Source: Trichothermofontia sichuanensis B231 | Lineage (GTDB): Bacteria > Cyanobacteriota > Cyanobacteriia > B231 | Assembly: GCF_026240635.1 (NCBI RefSeq) | Contig: NZ_CP110848.1 | Span: 2,995,741 to 3,059,740 of the forward strand | Length of the DNA: 64,000 bases | Direction: 5' to 3' | Part shown: one piece after another, positions 9,916 to 58,044 of the stretch | Position numbering within the stretch: position 1 is the first letter of the stretch | How the letters are laid out: each line of letters starts with the position of its first letter | Translations under genes and position numbers: made by a program | Notes under the pieces: generated by a model | Seen by the model: the letters and a program-made list of their open reading frames with translations, nothing else | What the model was told of the DNA's origin: nothing | Databases searched by the model: none

Positions 9916-10020
9916 TATAGTCATTGCAATTGAGACTGAAACAGCCCCCTCACTCCCAACCCCTCTCCTACAGGGGAAGAGAGGGGCTTAGACATCTCTT
10001 TCTAATCTTAAATAACTATA
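9916..10020. repeat. Intergenic repeat, family B (TATAGTCATT ends)
   Basis: The left end TATAGTCATTGCAATTGAG is followed by ACTGAAACAGCCCCCTCAC and a CCCTCTCCTACAGGGG hairpin. The right end ATCTTAAATAACTATA is inverted relative to the left. It is MITE-like, about 105 bp, between the GT2 stop and treS. Confidence 0.75.
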
Positions 10021-10153: not shown

Positions 10154-13100
10154 CTAACCGAATGAATCCAGCAGTTGCAGAATTCGGTGTAGTGAAATCT
10201 CAATCCATTGGGGTTTACTGCCCAGGGCATAGCCCAACTCATGCACGGCCTTTTCTAGCAAATAGGCATCCAAAAGCACCTGTAACTCCTGTTGGGTTTT
10301 CGCGATAAATGACGCTTCGCCGGTCAAGCTTAAATAGGCATTAAGAAAGGCCACACTGGTCCAGCTATACCAGAACTGTGCCCACTGCTCCATCAATGGT
10401 AACCGGTCAGGACGGATAATCCCACTTTCAACCTCCTGGCGTAGGGCGGTTTGCACCACAAAACTGAAGGATTGCAGCATCCCGGCAATGTCCCGTAGCG
10501 GCGATCGCTTCATCCGGCGTTCATTGAGCGGACGGCTGCGTTCCCCTTCAAAATCGACAATGACAAAATCTTTGCCCGTATAGAGTACCTGACCCAGGTG
10601 ATAATCCCCGTGGCAACGAATGCGGGTGGCCTGGATCGGCTGGTTCAGTACCGCACCAAAGCGCCCCATCAATTGATCTCGACGGTTTAGGACGCTTTGG
10701 GCCAGTGGTTGTAACTCGGGTGGCAGGTAGGGTAGTTGCTTCTTCAAGGTAAGTAGCGTTTGCCCCGCCAGATTGCGCATGTATTGGTAAATCGATCGCT
10801 GATAGAACGACGTAAACGCCTCCGGGGCAAAGCTAGAATTCTCCGCATCCGACGCCAGCATCAGGTGCAATTCGGCAGTCCGTTGCCCCAGCAGTTCTGC
10901 GGCCCCCAAGTAGGCCCCTAGGAGTTCATAGGCACGGGTAGGGATTGGCTCCATCAGGGTTTGGAGGAGGGGAGCCATTGGCAGCAGGACTTCACTCACC
11001 GCCTCTGCCTGCACCATCACCTGTTCAAAATAATCCCGCAGGACATCCAGGGTGTAGGCCCAGGCATCACGGGTATCGGGGATATAGCGTTGCAAAATGC
11101 CTAGGGCGATCGGCTCGCTCCCTTTGCTGCGGTATTCGAGGAAACCAGCTACGGGGGATAGGTGTTCCGGCAGGGCGGCATGGGTTGCTAGACTTCGCTG
11201 CGTGAGGAACGTCCCCATTTCCACCTCCGGATTGATGCCCGGTTCCACCTTGCGGAAGAGCTTAAAGAACATACAATCGCCATAGACGATCGCCGAGTCG
11301 GTCTGGGCACCTTTGTAGAGATGGGGATCGGTCGTGGTTGCCGTGGCCCGCAATTGCTCAAAGACCCCATTAATCGGCACTGCGACTACCTCGCCCTGAG
11401 CGCCGCTATAGCGCTGACTCTGGGCGATCGCCTGCCAGGGAAAGGCGAGGAAACCAGGGGCCTCAAAGGCATCAAAGAGAATCCCCCGGTCTTCCGTGCC
11501 CTGCACCTGAAGTTGGGCGATCGCGTGTTCGTGGGGGATAGCCATTGGCTCCTCCTTGCCACGGGGTTCATAGGCCAGGGGCAGGACATAAAACTCGGCA
11601 CTGCCTTCGGTATAGTCCACCTGAATCAAAGTGAGGTAGTAGAGCGGTGGGGTCGGCTCAGCCGTGGGGGCGGATAGGCCCCGGTTTTCCCCGGTTTTGG
11701 GATGCGGGTGAACGGGGCTACAGGGAATCACATCCTGGATTTGCACCGCCTGGATGACCCGCGACTTGCCATTAAACCAATAGCAGGTGAGTAGATAGGC
11801 AGGTAATAAGCTTTGTAAGGCTGCCTTTGCCTCGGCTTGGGAAAAGACACTTTCCCAGCTTCGCGTCACCGTCAGGGTCGGCACCTGGGCAACGGGGCGG
11901 GGCGTCTGGATGGGACTATCCTGGAGTTGCAGGGTAAACCAGTAGAAGGAATGGGGTCCCAGGCTGAGGAAATAGGGGGATTCGGTAATGGGTGGAAATT
12001 TAGTGCGGCCAAAAATTTCTACCGGCACCATGCCATTAAAGGCAGATAAGTCTAACTCGACGGTCTGCACAAACCGCGAGAGGTTGGCCACAACTAGAAT
12101 ATGTTCGGTGCCGTAGGTGCGGGTAAAGGCTATGACTTTGCGATTTTCCGGATACAGAAATTCAAAGGTCCCCCGGCCAAAGGCACGGTAGCGGGCACGA
12201 ATCGCCAGGATGCGCTTCATCCACCACCACAGGGAATTAGGATTAGCCCGCTGGGCTTCCACATTCACCGATTCGTAGTGGTATTCCGGATCGACGATCG
12301 GCGGGGCATATAACCGTTGGGGATTACCGCGGCTGAACCCGGCATTGCGATCGCTGCTCCACTGCATTGGTGTGCGCACCCCATTGCGATCACCCAGGTA
12401 GATATTATCGCCCATGCCAATTTCATCGCCGTAGTACAGCACAGGGGTACCGGGTAGGGAAAGCAGCAGGCTATTCATTAATTCAATCCGTCGCCGATTA
12501 TTACCCATCAATGGCGCGAGTCGGCGGCGAATACCCAGGTTAATCCGGGCCTGGGGGTCTGCTGCGTAGACACGATACATATAATCCCGGTCCTCATCGC
12601 TCACCATTTCCAGGGTCAATTCATCATGGTTGCGCAGGAACAAGGCCCACTGGCAGTTATCAGGAATATGGGGGGTTTGTTGGAGAATATCAATAATGGG
12701 AAAACTATCCTCCATGTGCAACGCCATGAACAGGCGAGGCATCAGGGGAAAATGAAAATTCATGTGACATTCATCCCCCTGGCCGTAATAAGCCGCTGCA
12801 TCCTCTGGCCACTGGTTGGCCTCCGCCAGCAACATTCGATTACGGAAGTGGGTGTCAATATGCTGCCGCAGACGCTTGAGAAAGGCGTGGGTTTCCGGTA
12901 AATTTTCGCAGTTTGTATTTTCCCGTTCATAGAGGTAGGGAACCGCATCCAGCCGTAGCCCATCCACCCCCATGCCAAGCCAGAAATCAACGACCTCGAA
13001 GATAGCCGATTTTAGTTCCGGGTGGTTGTAGTTCAGATCCGGTTGATGGGAATAAAACCGATGCCAGTAGTAGGCTTGGGCGATCGGGTCCCAGGCCCAG

Positions 13101-13570
13101 TTGGAGGTCTCAAAATCCTTGAAGATAATCCGGGCCTCTGCATACTTCTGGGGGGTATCACTCCAGACATAAAAATCCCGCTCCGAGCTACCGGCGGGGG
13201 CACGCCGGGCACGCTGAAACCACGGATGTTGATCCGAAGTGTGGTTAACAATGAGTTCAATAATGACCCGAATACCGCGATCGTGGGCTGCATCCAGGAA
13301 GGTTTGAAAATCCTCTAGGGTACCGTAGAGAGGATGGACGTTGGTGTAATCGGCGATATCGTAGCCATCATCCTTGAGTGGGGAGGGGAAAAACGGTAGA
13401 ATCCAGACGGCTGTGATGCCCAAATCGCGTAAATAGTCTAAGCGTTCCGTGAGACCTCGAAAGTCACCGACCCCGTCGCCATCACTGTCGCTAAAGGCAC
13501 GCACAGGAACTTCGTAGATCACGGCATCCTTAAACCACAGTGGATCATCACTTAACGCTTGATGTTGCAT
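10154..13570 (-). CDS. treS: Maltose alpha-D-glucosyltransferase (trehalose synthase) fused to maltokinase
   Basis: This 1138-residue bifunctional protein has two parts. Residues 1-560 or so form a GH13 trehalose synthase: KDAVIYEVPVRAFSDSDGDG, VDGLRLDAVPYLYERE (nucleophile Asp), LLAEANQWPED (Glu) and LRNHDELTLEMV (Asp). Residues about 600-1138 form a maltokinase-like domain with the kinase loop RIRCHGDYHLGQVLY and VIVDFEGERSRP. TreS interconverts maltose and trehalose, and Mak phosphorylates maltose to maltose-1-phosphate, the donor for GlgE. No glgE is in the window. The ATG at 13570 was chosen over the TTG at 13582. It is divergently transcribed from malQ, so the two probably share a control region. 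Confidence 0.94.
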   Translation of the reverse strand: MQHQALSDDPLWFKDAVIYEVPVRAFSDSDGDGVGDFRGLTERLDYLRDLGITAVWILPFFPSPLKDDGYDIADYTNVHPLYGTLEDFQTFLDAAHDRGIRVIIELIVNHTSDQHPWFQRARRAPAGSSERDFYVWSDTPQKYAEARIIFKDFETSNWAWDPIAQAYYWHRFYSHQPDLNYNHPELKSAIFEVVDFWLGMGVDGLRLDAVPYLYERENTNCENLPETHAFLKRLRQHIDTHFRNRMLLAEANQWPEDAAAYYGQGDECHMNFHFPLMPRLFMALHMEDSFPIIDILQQTPHIPDNCQWALFLRNHDELTLEMVSDEDRDYMYRVYAADPQARINLGIRRRLAPLMGNNRRRIELMNSLLLSLPGTPVLYYGDEIGMGDNIYLGDRNGVRTPMQWSSDRNAGFSRGNPQRLYAPPIVDPEYHYESVNVEAQRANPNSLWWWMKRILAIRARYRAFGRGTFEFLYPENRKVIAFTRTYGTEHILVVANLSRFVQTVELDLSAFNGMVPVEIFGRTKFPPITESPYFLSLGPHSFYWFTLQLQDSPIQTPRPVAQVPTLTVTRSWESVFSQAEAKAALQSLLPAYLLTCYWFNGKSRVIQAVQIQDVIPCSPVHPHPKTGENRGLSAPTAEPTPPLYYLTLIQVDYTEGSAEFYVLPLAYEPRGKEEPMAIPHEHAIAQLQVQGTEDRGILFDAFEAPGFLAFPWQAIAQSQRYSGAQGEVVAVPINGVFEQLRATATTTDPHLYKGAQTDSAIVYGDCMFFKLFRKVEPGINPEVEMGTFLTQRSLATHAALPEHLSPVAGFLEYRSKGSEPIALGILQRYIPDTRDAWAYTLDVLRDYFEQVMVQAEAVSEVLLPMAPLLQTLMEPIPTRAYELLGAYLGAAELLGQRTAELHLMLASDAENSSFAPEAFTSFYQRSIYQYMRNLAGQTLLTLKKQLPYLPPELQPLAQSVLNRRDQLMGRFGAVLNQPIQATRIRCHGDYHLGQVLYTGKDFVIVDFEGERSRPLNERRMKRSPLRDIAGMLQSFSFVVQTALRQEVESGIIRPDRLPLMEQWAQFWYSWTSVAFLNAYLSLTGEASFIAKTQQELQVLLDAYLLEKAVHELGYALGSKPQWIEISLHRILQLLDSFG

Positions 13571-13717
13571 AACTTCTTCCAACGCCTACGCGGCTCTGAC
13601 AAAGCAACTGCCCCCCAGGGTAACAGTTCTGATCCGGCTGCACCAACCTCGTCCCCCCGTTCGTCGGCCCCAACGGCGCAAGCCCGCGCTCAGCAGACCA
13701 AGCGGCAGTACCAGGGC

Positions 13718-15244
13718 ATGACTTTTCCCCGCAGTAGTGGGGTGTTGTTGCACCCGACCTGTTTGCCCAGTGCCCACGGGATTGGGGATTTGGGGGGCGG
13801 AGCCTACGAGTTTGTCAATTTCCTGGAACGCAGCGGTCAGAGGCTCTGGCAGATTTTGCCCCTGGGACCAACGGGCTATGAGCATTCGCCCTACATTATG
13901 AATTTCAGCACCTTTGCCGGTAACCCGTTGCTGATCTCCCTGGAGCAGTTGGCCGATGCGGGCCTGTTACGCCACGATGAACTGGCCCCGATCGCGGCGA
14001 ATCCGGACCTGCCTGCCGATCGCATTGACTTCGATCGCGTCATTGCCCACAAAACCCCCTACTTGGAGCGGGCCTTTCACACCTTTGAGCAACGGCTAGC
14101 GGCACAGGCTGATCCTGACTTTGAGCAATTCTGCCAAACCCAAGCCTACTGGCTGGACGACTATGCCCTATTCATGGCGCTGCTGGATGCCCAACCGGGC
14201 ACGACCTGGAATCAGTGGGAACCGGCGATCGCCCGTCGTAATCCTAAGGCACTGGCCCAACAGCGAGAGCTTCACCGCGATCGCATTCGCTATCACCAAT
14301 TCCTGCAATTTCAATTTTTCCGGCAGTGGGCCAACCTGCGGGCCTATGCCAATCAGCGTAATATCAAAATCATTGGCGATATTTCCATCTATGTGTGCTA
14401 CAACAGCGCCGACGTGTGGCAACAGCCGGATATTTTTGAACTGGACAGCAAAACCCTGGAACCGAAATATATTGCGGGTGTGCCACCGGATTACTTCAGT
14501 GAAACGGGGCAGTTGTGGGGCAATCCGGTTTATAACTGGAATCGCTTAAAAGCCACCCGCTTTGATTGGTGGCTCAAGCGGTTTGAAGCAACCCTGCAAT
14601 ATGTGGATTGGGTCCGCATCGATCATTTCCGGGGCTTTGAAGCCTTCTGGCGAGTCCCAGCGGGCGAGAAGACAGCAATTAAGGGAAAATGGATTCCAGC
14701 CCCGGGGGAAGAATTTTTTGCGGCACTCTACGATCGCTTTGGCCAACTACCGGTCCTTGCCGAAGATTTGGGGGTCATTACCCCACCGGTAGAAGCCCTG
14801 CGGGATCAGTTTGGCCTGCCGGGAATGCGTATTCTTCTGTTTGCCTTTGGCGGGGGTAGCGATAACCCCTATCTGCCTCATAATTATGTGCGCAATTGCC
14901 TAGTGTATACGGGCACCCATGATAACGACACCACCGTGGGTTGGTGGCAAGAGAAGGCAACCCCAACCGAGAAGCAATTCGTTGCCGATTATCTGGGCTA
15001 TCGTTCCCCCGATGAGATTCATGAGATTCATTGGGATTTAATCCGCACAGCTTTAAGCTCGATCGCGGATCTGGCGATTATCCCCCTGCAAGACCTGTTG
15101 GGTTTGGATAATCGGGCACGCACGAATGATCCTAGTGTGAACGAGGGCAACTGGCGCTGGCGCTATCTCGATTCCGGAGTGTTGCACCCCGGGCTAAGCG
15201 AGCGGCTATTGGAACTGACCCGCACCTTTGGGCGGTGTCGTTGA
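13718..15244 (+). CDS. malQ: 4-alpha-glucanotransferase (amylomaltase)
   Basis: This 508-residue GH77 enzyme transfers malto-oligosaccharide segments between acceptors. Motifs: RSSGVLLHPTCLPS at the N-terminus, DWVRIDHFRGFEAFW (nucleophile Asp), PVLAEDLGVITPPVEALR (acid/base Glu) and YTGTHDNDTTVGWW. The ATG at 13718 gives the usual family start. An in-frame upstream ATG at 13562 would add a 52-residue low-complexity Ser/Ala/Pro segment overlapping the treS start by 9 bp, and is less likely but not excluded. With TreS-Mak and GlgX it covers breakdown and reshuffling of glycogen-derived glucans. Confidence 0.94.
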   Translation: MTFPRSSGVLLHPTCLPSAHGIGDLGGGAYEFVNFLERSGQRLWQILPLGPTGYEHSPYIMNFSTFAGNPLLISLEQLADAGLLRHDELAPIAANPDLPADRIDFDRVIAHKTPYLERAFHTFEQRLAAQADPDFEQFCQTQAYWLDDYALFMALLDAQPGTTWNQWEPAIARRNPKALAQQRELHRDRIRYHQFLQFQFFRQWANLRAYANQRNIKIIGDISIYVCYNSADVWQQPDIFELDSKTLEPKYIAGVPPDYFSETGQLWGNPVYNWNRLKATRFDWWLKRFEATLQYVDWVRIDHFRGFEAFWRVPAGEKTAIKGKWIPAPGEEFFAALYDRFGQLPVLAEDLGVITPPVEALRDQFGLPGMRILLFAFGGGSDNPYLPHNYVRNCLVYTGTHDNDTTVGWWQEKATPTEKQFVADYLGYRSPDEIHEIHWDLIRTALSSIADLAIIPLQDLLGLDNRARTNDPSVNEGNWRWRYLDSGVLHPGLSERLLELTRTFGRCR

Positions 15245-15445: not shown

Positions 15446-15548
15446 TATAGTCATTGCCATTTAGGCTGAAACAGCCCCCTCACCCCCAACCCCTCTCCCA
15501 CAGGGAGAGAGGAGCTTAGACATCTCTTTCTAATCTGAAATAACTATA
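15446..15548. repeat. Intergenic repeat, family B
   Basis: TATAGTCATTGCCATTTAG at the left and CTGAAATAACTATA at the right frame a CCCCTCTCCCACAGGGAGAG core. The element is nearly identical in design to the copy at 9916-10020. It lies in the 306-bp gap between malQ and the recombinase-like gene and ends just before the latter's stop codon. Confidence 0.78.
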
Positions 15549-15550
15549 AT

Positions 15551-16900
15551 CTAAAAAATAAATACTAGGCGTATTTGCCAGGCTTCAGAGGATAAACGAT
15601 CTGACAAGACATGATTGGAACGAATAATTTGGATCTGCTGAATAAACTCCCGTAGATAAAACCGACGTTCCACTTCTGACAAATCCAACCAGAATTGGGG
15701 CAAAGAAACGGTCTGGGCGATCGTGGTTAAATTAGGAGGCGGCAACTGAGCTTGCTGCATTTGTAAGGTAGCCAATTCATTACGGACTTTATAGGCCCGA
15801 AGAGCAGCGGTTTCCTCATCCAAAATTCCCTGCATAACCAGGCTAGGCAGTTGAGCCAAAATAGCCTGCTTCTGGGATTGGGCTGTGGTTAACTGCTGTC
15901 GCATTTGCTCCAGGCCGGCATTACTTAAACCCGCTACCGCGACCGGTAACTCTTGACAAACCGCTGCGATCGTCTTTTCCAATACCTGTTCATAACGCAA
16001 GCTAGGACAGTGGGGACGATGGGGACAGGCCGCTGGCCGGAGGTATACGTATGTCTGCGCCCGTCGCGGGGCAGTTACCTGTACAGTGCGGAATGGGCAC
16101 TGGCACTCCCCGCAGAAGACTAACCCTGCCAGCGATCGCGGCGCACTGGCCGTGCGGGGGGGAAGGCGACGGTTGCGACGCAACAGGCGATCGACTTGGG
16201 CTGCCTCCTCCCGCGAGAGCAAAGCGGGATGGGTGTCTGGGATAATTTCGCCTTGACGATAGGCGAGATCACCTCGGTAGACAGGATGGGTGAGCCAACG
16301 TCGGCCTGTGGAAACGGCAATGCGCTTGCCATATTTTTGCTGGAGATATCGTACTGCTCGGCGTAGAGAACCGTAGAGCAAAAACTGCTCAAAAAAGTCC
16401 TTGACCACGGGTGCTGTCGCCCGATCAACTACGTAACGGTCCTTCCTCCGGCGATAACCGTAGGGGGCTTTCCCAGGGGGGGGAATTGCCTGGAGCCGAT
16501 TGCGGGCATGACCCCGTTGGATGGCTTGGCCATGAACTTGGGGAGGATCGGCGGCAAGGGATCGCAACACCTCGGCGGGACTCAGGGGAACCCCTGTGGG
16601 TACACCATTGGGTGGAACGGCGGCCAGCGAACAGATTTGCACCCCCAGCTGGTGGAGTTGCCAACAACACTCACTAATCGCAGTCACGGTATCCCCCAAA
16701 TCCTTAAGGCGACGCAACACTAACAGAGTAATGCTTCCCGTATGGCAGTCCTGTAATAACTGCGCTAGTTGAGTACGATCGCCCCGATCCCAATAGATGC
16801 GATCAAGCGGTTGTCCCCAGGCGATCGGTGTAACGTCTGGCTCCAGCAAGGGATCTTGATAAACATAGGCAACAACAGAGACAGGAGGGGAAAGCGCCAC
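15551..16900 (-). CDS. Serine-recombinase-like protein lacking catalytic residues
   Basis: This 449-residue protein has the layout of a large serine recombinase. It has an N-terminal resolvase-like domain (1-130) and a Recombinase DNA-binding domain (about 140-250; GKAPYGYRRRKDRYVVD, HPVYRGDLAYRQGEI). A zinc ribbon (FCGECQCPF ... CPHRPHC) follows at about 260-300, then a C-terminal coiled coil. The resolvase motif that normally reads Y-A-R-V-S is AYVYQDP, so the Arg and nucleophilic Ser are absent. The helix that normally reads L-D-R-L-G-R is RLKDLGD, so both active-site arginines are replaced by Asp. It therefore cannot catalyse strand exchange in the known way, although DNA binding looks intact. 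It resembles XisF-type cyanobacterial recombinases in layout. It is a singleton between repeats and shows no frameshift, so it is maintained rather than decaying. Confidence 0.82.
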   Translation of the reverse strand: MALSPPVSVVAYVYQDPLLEPDVTPIAWGQPLDRIYWDRGDRTQLAQLLQDCHTGSITLLVLRRLKDLGDTVTAISECCWQLHQLGVQICSLAAVPPNGVPTGVPLSPAEVLRSLAADPPQVHGQAIQRGHARNRLQAIPPPGKAPYGYRRRKDRYVVDRATAPVVKDFFEQFLLYGSLRRAVRYLQQKYGKRIAVSTGRRWLTHPVYRGDLAYRQGEIIPDTHPALLSREEAAQVDRLLRRNRRLPPRTASAPRSLAGLVFCGECQCPFRTVQVTAPRRAQTYVYLRPAACPHRPHCPSLRYEQVLEKTIAAVCQELPVAVAGLSNAGLEQMRQQLTTAQSQKQAILAQLPSLVMQGILDEETAALRAYKVRNELATLQMQQAQLPPPNLTTIAQTVSLPQFWLDLSEVERRFYLREFIQQIQIIRSNHVLSDRLSSEAWQIRLVFIF

Positions 16901-32343: not shown

Positions 32344-32450
32344 TATAGTCATTGCCATTTAGGCTGAAACAGCCCCCTCACCCCCAGCCCCTCTCCCAGA
32401 GCGAGAGAGGGCAGTGAAAAACTGTATCGTTCTTATTTGGATTGACCATA
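32344..32450. repeat. Intergenic repeat, family B, next to a broken gene
   Basis: TATAGTCATTGCCATTTAG at the left, core CCCTCTCCCAGAGCGAGAG, right end TATTTGGATTGACCATA. It is nearly identical to the inverse of the copy at 39775-39881. Its right edge abuts the coding remnant that starts at 32451, which lacks a proper N-terminus. Confidence 0.82.
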
Positions 32451-39774: not shown

Positions 39775-39881
39775 TATAGTCAATCCAAATAAGAACGATA
39801 CAGTTTTTCACTCCCCTCTCCCGCTCTGGGAGAGGGGCTGGGGGTGAGGGGGCTGTTTCAGCCTAAATGGCAATGACCATA
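39775..39881. repeat. Intergenic repeat, family B (inverse orientation)
   Basis: The left end TATAGTCAATCCAAATAAG is followed by core CCCTCTCCCGCTCTGGGAG and the right end GGCAATGACCATA. It is the near-exact inverse complement of the copy at 32344-32450. Confidence 0.82.
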
Positions 39882-54480: not shown

Positions 54481-54710
54481 ATAGTTTTACTTGACATAGC
54501 TAGGATGGGGGCATCCTCCTAGGGCGACCCTCACCCCCAATTCCTCTCCCAGAGCGGGAGAAAGACTTGAACATCCGGCTCCCCTTCGCCCCATCCCCCG
54601 CAAACGGGGGGCTAGGGGGGCCGGGAGAAGGGGTTGGAGGATGCGGGCTACCGGTAGGCTCAAGATCCCAACCTTAACGGCGTACTGAGTAAATTAGGTA
54701 TAAGGCTGTA
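54481..54710. repeat. Intergenic repeat, family A, copy 4 (inverted, composite)
   Basis: The right end is AAATTAGGTATAAGGCTGTA, the complement of the left end of copies 2 and 3. The left part TATAGTTTTACTTG matches the inner right part, so the outer right end is missing. The interior contains CCCTCACCCCCAATTCC and an additional CAAACGGGGGGCTAGGGGGG insertion. Confidence 0.6.
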
Positions 54711-57923: not shown

Positions 57924-58044
57924 TATGGTCAATCCCAATAAGAACGATACAGTTTTTAATTCCCCTCTTTTAATTCCCCTCTCCCGCTCTGGGAGAGGGG
58001 CTGGGGGTGAGGGGGCTGTTTCAACCTAAATGGCAATAACTATA
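57924..58044. repeat. Intergenic repeat, family B, with internal duplication, abutting a second copy
   Basis: TATGGTCAATCCCAATAAG at the left, core CCCTCTCCCGCTCTGGGAG, right end GGCAATAACTATA. TTTTAATTCCCCTC is duplicated inside. Immediately to its left, 57835-57925 is the end of another copy (GGGGGCTGTTTCAGCC, TTGCAACGACTATA) which shares the TATA boundary. Confidence 0.72.

Follow-up and report, generated by a model that had tools for sequence, protein, structure and literature searches.

On the reverse strand of the 64,000-nucleotide window, that is, the whole stretch of Trichothermofontia sichuanensis B231 DNA analyzed here, an open reading frame at positions 15551..16900 starts with GTG and encodes 449 amino acids with no internal stops, bearing out the clean frame over 449 codons described in a sequence-only reading of this locus. 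Based on its reading frame and on Pfam and NCBIfam searches, the gene encodes a homologue of large serine recombinases that appears to be catalytically dead. An N-terminal resolvase-fold domain (residues 9-95, positions 16616..16876; recognized by alignment, predicted fold and structural match), in which Y14, D16, K66, D67 and D70 replace Arg, Ser, Asp, Arg and Arg and R42 is retained, is followed by a linker and a long predicted helix (residues 96-139, 16484..16615; predicted fold and structural match) and by a recombinase DNA-binding domain (residues 140-252, 16145..16483; PF07508) whose conservation is the highest of all parts of the protein. Beyond these lie a zinc ribbon (residues 253-300, 16001..16144; PF13408) with invariant cysteines C263, C266, C292 and C298, a predicted coiled-coil hairpin region (residues 301-386, 15743..16000; predicted helices 303-324, 327-356 and 362-384), and a conserved C-terminal part (residues 387-449, 15554..15742; delimited by conservation and predicted fold), all encoded on the same reverse strand.

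The Recombinase (PF07508; E 5e-12, residues 162-243) and zinc ribbon (PF13408; E 3e-6, residues 257-315) models both matched the B231 protein above their cut-offs, in agreement with the earlier description of these two parts as well preserved, and the Resolvase model (PF00239) reached 18.9 bits over residues 40-93, below its cut-off of 23.3. Across the family, PF00239 was found in 48 of 48 members of an alignment termed here A2 at E<=0.01, as were PF07508 and PF13408. The top NCBIfam model was that of XisF, the fdxN element excision recombinase (NF041201), which matched residues 39-425 with 119 bits and thus fell short of the curated cut-off of 375 that defines an XisF equivalog; the two proteins share the same domain order, but the B231 family lacks the catalytic motif and forms a separate group in the tree. 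The sole solved structure matched by sequence search was that of the A118 phage integrase (residues 182-297 of the B231 protein).

An AlphaFold2 model of the protein had a mean pLDDT of 84 and a pTM of 0.47, and because of this low pTM the model does not support any particular domain arrangement or dimer geometry. When compared with those chains that Foldseek ranked high, the modeled N-domain (residues 4-112) matched 3g13 with a Z of 11.9 and an rmsd of 2.5 over 97 aligned residues, and residues 136-449 matched the DNA-bound A118 recombinase 4kis with a Z of 13.6, but with an rmsd of 14.9 over 268 residues. The modeled N-domain has a short first helix (residues 25-28), and helices 327-356 and 362-384 are predicted to form the coiled-coil hairpin. 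The predicted resolvase-fold N-domain, recombinase domain, zinc ribbon and predicted hairpin together identify the protein, as modeled, as a large serine recombinase by descent. Features shared with the integrases of A118 (4kis, 6dnw), PhiC31 and Bxb1 are the fold predicted for the N-domain, the recombinase domain, the zinc ribbon and the coiled-coil region. Unlike these integrases, members of the B231 family have no Ser nucleophile, are unmatched among the mobile-element records searched, and are usually encoded by a single cyanobacterial gene.

To describe the active site, we use gamma-delta resolvase numbering (Y6/R8/S10, D67/R68/R71 and R45). In alignment with XisF-type proteins, the YxRxS motif corresponds to Y12-V-Y14-Q-D16 of the B231 protein and the DRLGR motif to K66-D67-L68-G69-D70, such that the equivalents of active-site arginines R8, R68 and R71 are Y14, D67 and D70. 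The sequence-only reading had placed AYVYQDP at the Arg-x-Ser site and RLKDLGD at the DRLGR site, and the alignment confirms both. Its stronger statement, that all catalytic residues are replaced, holds for the Ser nucleophile and the three arginines but not for the R45 equivalent: this residue is kept as R42, and therefore not every catalytic residue has been replaced.

Residues were scored in 153 distinct relatives, obtained from 169 family proteins by merging those with identical C-terminal ends, although closely related sequences and a handful of partial or frameshifted ones (e.g., L047, L056 and L059) persist among them. The first catalytic Arg was present in none of 146 scorable relatives, and a Ser occupied the place of the nucleophile in one of 146 (L204, which has a Cys at the first Arg place); an Arg was found at the R68 place in one and at the R71 place in two of the 153. 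These last exceptions, namely a protein that retains the D-R of DRLGR (L193) and two that retain its final Arg (L037 and L039), all lack both the first Arg and the Ser. Conversely, D38 was kept in all 146 scorable relatives and the R45-equivalent Arg in 146 of 148, and both the Arg and the Ser were present in all 19 scorable rows among 20 XisF-type rows (a set that includes L167 as well as L184, the same gene as L151). The alignment with XisF, proposed earlier as a way to see whether the loss is shared by a clade, thus finds it common to the whole family. Judged by these aligned residues, the nucleophilic Ser is absent, as are three key arginines of the active site, and this loss is a property of the entire orthologous family and not of the B231 gene alone.

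The substituted residues are in turn conserved. Scanning named genomes yielded 80 loci, the best 80 of 361 relatives, in which the nucleophile place is held by Asp (67), Asn (8) or Glu (5) and never by Ser; the place of the first Arg by Tyr (79) or Phe (1); that of R68 by Glu (76), Asp (2) or Gln (2); that of R71 by Asp (71), Asn (5), Glu (3) or Ser (1); and that of R45 by Arg (79) or His (1). The loss of basic residues in favor of conserved and mostly acidic ones suggests selection on a new state rather than drift. A Ser and Arg pair elsewhere in the N-domain, an outcome that would contradict the catalytic loss, did not stand out: the invariant columns of A2 (48 sequences) include no N-domain Ser, and an RxS string within the first 60 amino acids, present in 11 of the 153 relatives, lay in the nucleophile motif in none of the 11. 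A hidden catalytic Ser/Arg pair was rejected on these grounds.

Median pairwise dN/dS was lowest, at 0.07 (23 pairs), in the DNA-binding part comprising the recombinase and zinc domains, and was 0.14 both in the N-domain (21 pairs) and in the coiled coil and C-terminus (23 pairs), with a highest counted value of 0.39, these figures excluding comparisons with dS below 0.03 (the L133/L135 N-domain, ratio 0.92) or with undefined dS (the L122/L124 N-domain). Purifying selection acts on every domain, and chance or artefact can be dismissed on the basis of these ratios and of family conservation. Mean pairwise identity among the best 80 of 361 relatives is 0.79 in the recombinase domain versus 0.59 in the N-domain. 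Moreover, no N-domain was found in proteins of 283-342 amino acids encoded by five genomes, which occupy three branches of the tree (L194, L195, also L034, L196, also L051, L197 and L198), although a diverged or frameshifted N-domain may lie upstream of them; all five short proteins retain the recombinase, zinc and coiled-coil parts. The N-domain thus appears to have been dropped in these five genomes, and the short forms fit a working core of DNA binding plus coiled-coil hairpin; its recurrent loss speaks against a single essential function of the N-terminal half. Broken copies of the gene also occur: one is split and contains stops (G139), one survives as a pair of fragments containing 11 and 5 stops (G389), and one is a 59-residue piece (G174). 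Genome G389 (2.8 Mb) contains only its stop-filled remnant (C1:1826495-1827166) and belongs to the same genus group as G385, whose copy is intact, and G416 has no copy; the counts of HIP1, the highly iterated palindrome (GCGATCGC), in G389, G416 and G385 are 103, 108 and 2995.

A search of 291 sampled genomes of the class returned matches at E<=1e-5 in 192, of which eight were removed as weak (seven are other recombinases with 23-28% identity, and the eighth is the 59-residue piece of G174), leaving strong matches in 184 of 291 genomes and in 31 of 39 families. The gene is typically present in a single copy, with best matches of ~50-60% identity across the class. It was found in none of 35 f2, six f13 and six f10 genomes, in none of the six genomes of f6, f14, f21, f30 and f33 taken together, and in only 5/33 f23 and 2/8 f16 genomes; with these ten families set aside, it is present in 177 of the 197 genomes of the remaining 29. 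At the level of the phylum, 94 of 194 genomes had a match, 75 of the 94 in the same class, and the 19 matches in other classes were weak (best E 2.5e-19). A tree built from 313 columns of the C-terminal half placed the 66 family rows in one clade apart from 18 XisF-type rows (SH-aLRT 100); it is a quick tree without bootstrap, in which a long branch separates the family from the XisF-type group and from which L184 and L167 were left out. A named S. elongatus control genome matches PF07508, and a member of the family is likely to exist in this model strain. Literature searches, in a collection from which preprints, supplementary tables and subscription journals are largely absent, turned up no description of this family. 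Active Xis recombinases are treated in the accessible text of PMC4874684, and the family is not mentioned in the accessible portions of PMC3025956 or PMC5101192.

No relative was found among IMG/VR viral contigs, PLSDB plasmid records or INPHARED phage records, and thus the collections searched, like the usual single copy, give no indication of an association with phages or mobile elements. In the neighborhood of the gene, 62 of the 80 named loci (the best 80 of 361 relatives) have a small gene of the VOC (glyoxalase) fold on the same strand no more than 8 kb upstream, and at 49 it is no more than 240 bp away, distances being approximate because start codons were chosen by rule. Among the class genomes in which both positions were printed, the two genes are adjacent in 40 of 128, spread over 11 families. 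They are not adjacent in the B231 window, a related VOC gene being located elsewhere in that genome, nor in families f3, f5, f12, f24 and f26, and f13 genomes carry the VOC gene without the recombinase homologue. The VOC link is therefore an operon in some lineages and no fixed pair. The upstream VOC-fold gene (L067, L094 and other named loci) itself belongs to a widespread cyanobacterial family with matches in 185 of 291 genomes, and reaches no NCBIfam cut-off. A search for an operator, in which 8-mers, 10-mers and gapped dyads from the DNA preceding the operon at the 80 named loci were compared with 589 control upstream stretches, recovered no common motif, the top-ranked motifs listed being shared by at most 12 of the 80 (best 80 of 361 relatives); apparent motifs upstream of the recombinase homologue itself probably represent VOC coding sequence.

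We assign a probability of about 0.6 to the reading that these genes encode an old domesticated large serine recombinase of mainly vertical descent, whose ability to cleave DNA would have been lost a single time, in the ancestor of those cyanobacterial lineages in which the gene occurs, and which would now bind or loop DNA without cutting it. On this reading, a dimer would bind a specific DNA site via the recombinase domain together with the zinc domain, and two such protein-DNA complexes would be joined chiefly by the coiled-coil hairpin, with a contribution from the N-domain helix, yielding a regulator or chromosome organizer equivalent to a recombinase halted at the synapsis step. Binding, dimer formation and coiled-coil bridging are all taken by analogy from large serine recombinases, and the loss of cleavage would follow from the residues; because those key to cutting are gone, the protein probably holds or bridges DNA rather than cutting it. 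The earlier proposal of DNA binding without recombination is, by inference, well supported by the clade-wide catalytic loss, by purifying selection and by the superior conservation of the DNA-binding part. Speaking against this reading are the absence or rarity of the gene in ten of 39 families and the lack of a shared operator motif. A more ambitious version, which we regard as speculative, holds that this is an ancient, class-wide cyanobacterial DNA-bridging protein, derived from an integrase frozen at synapsis, whose coiled coils would tie distant sites together uncut and thereby organize the chromosome or regulate genes; we know of no counterpart of such a bridging system in other bacteria.

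Several other explanations account for part of the evidence. The frequent upstream VOC gene would be expected if the protein acted locally to regulate transcription of its own operon, with the VOC protein or its substrate setting the signal, but the inconstancy of this neighbor, which is missing beside the gene in B231 and five families and present without the homologue in f13, together with the lack of a shared upstream motif, makes such a role unlikely. The retained fold, and the co-occurrence of XisF-type genes with a catalytic motif in some genomes carrying the homologue, might point to a protein that partners with or inhibits an active recombinase. In B231, however, PF00239 has no match at E<=0.001, PF07508 and NF041201 match no gene besides ORF 15551..16900, and the two tyrosine-recombinase matches are both below cut-off; with no other serine recombinase detected in this genome, the structural partnership suggested by the sequence-only reading finds no support there, and we consider a partner role improbable. 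Recombinase activity persisting through a rearranged active site would accommodate the near-universal R45 equivalent and D38, but is very improbable given the lack of an invariant N-domain Ser, the replacement of three active-site arginines (in two cases mostly by acidic residues), and the five genomes in which the N-domain is missing.

The broken copies noted above would suit a decaying relic of a prophage or other element, but the intact reading frame, the usual single copy with class-wide identity and the low dN/dS of each domain, where neutral values would have favored decay, leave very little room for this explanation. Least probable of all is that the homologue is the binding protein for HIP1. 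The two are strongly associated across the 291 genomes (164 with both, 53 only HIP1-rich, 20 with only the homologue and 54 with neither; odds ratio 8.4), and an initial sample of 45 hand-picked genomes gave an even better picture than the full set, but this association vanishes within families (Mantel-Haenszel odds ratio about 1.2): 26 f23 and all six f10 genomes lack the gene yet are HIP1-rich, and all eight f5 genomes have the gene without HIP1. HIP1 binding was rejected for this reason.

The domestication that we favor has an analogue in TldR, which derives from a TnpB nuclease. TldR, described in the accessible text of PMC13418256 as an RNA-guided transcription factor of phages, is likewise a mobile-element protein turned to regulation, but it belongs to a different protein family, and regulation by the B231 family would be a candidate role. 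Because its domain content would get the gene listed as a recombinase, a conserved and probably DNA-binding cyanobacterial family stays hidden; should its members bridge or mark DNA, this family would represent a case of an integrase turned into a host protein and a concrete candidate for chromosome organization or regulation in cyanobacteria.

Tyrosine recombinases typically carry a His two positions ahead of a Leu-Arg-His motif. No B231 gene exceeds the PF00589 cut-off, and the better of the two weaker matches (L208 544-1740, outside the window; 398 amino acids, 25.0 bits against 27.1) reads SPYSLRHAW at the place where this His is expected; the usual Xer pair may be missing from this genome or diverged. 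Within the window, a 23-base repeat (CCCTCACCCCCAACCCCTCTCCC-like consensus) occurs in seven copies with at most three mismatches, where shuffled sequences lead to an expectation of zero (2809-2831, 9947-9969, 15477-15499, 32375-32397, 39828-39850, 54528-54550 and 57991-58013), one of them just downstream of the recombinase homologue. At 10154-15244, two genes, presumably trehalose synthase/maltokinase-like and 4-alpha-glucanotransferase-like, start head to head and, when read as longest open reading frames, overlap by 24 bases at 13559-13582.
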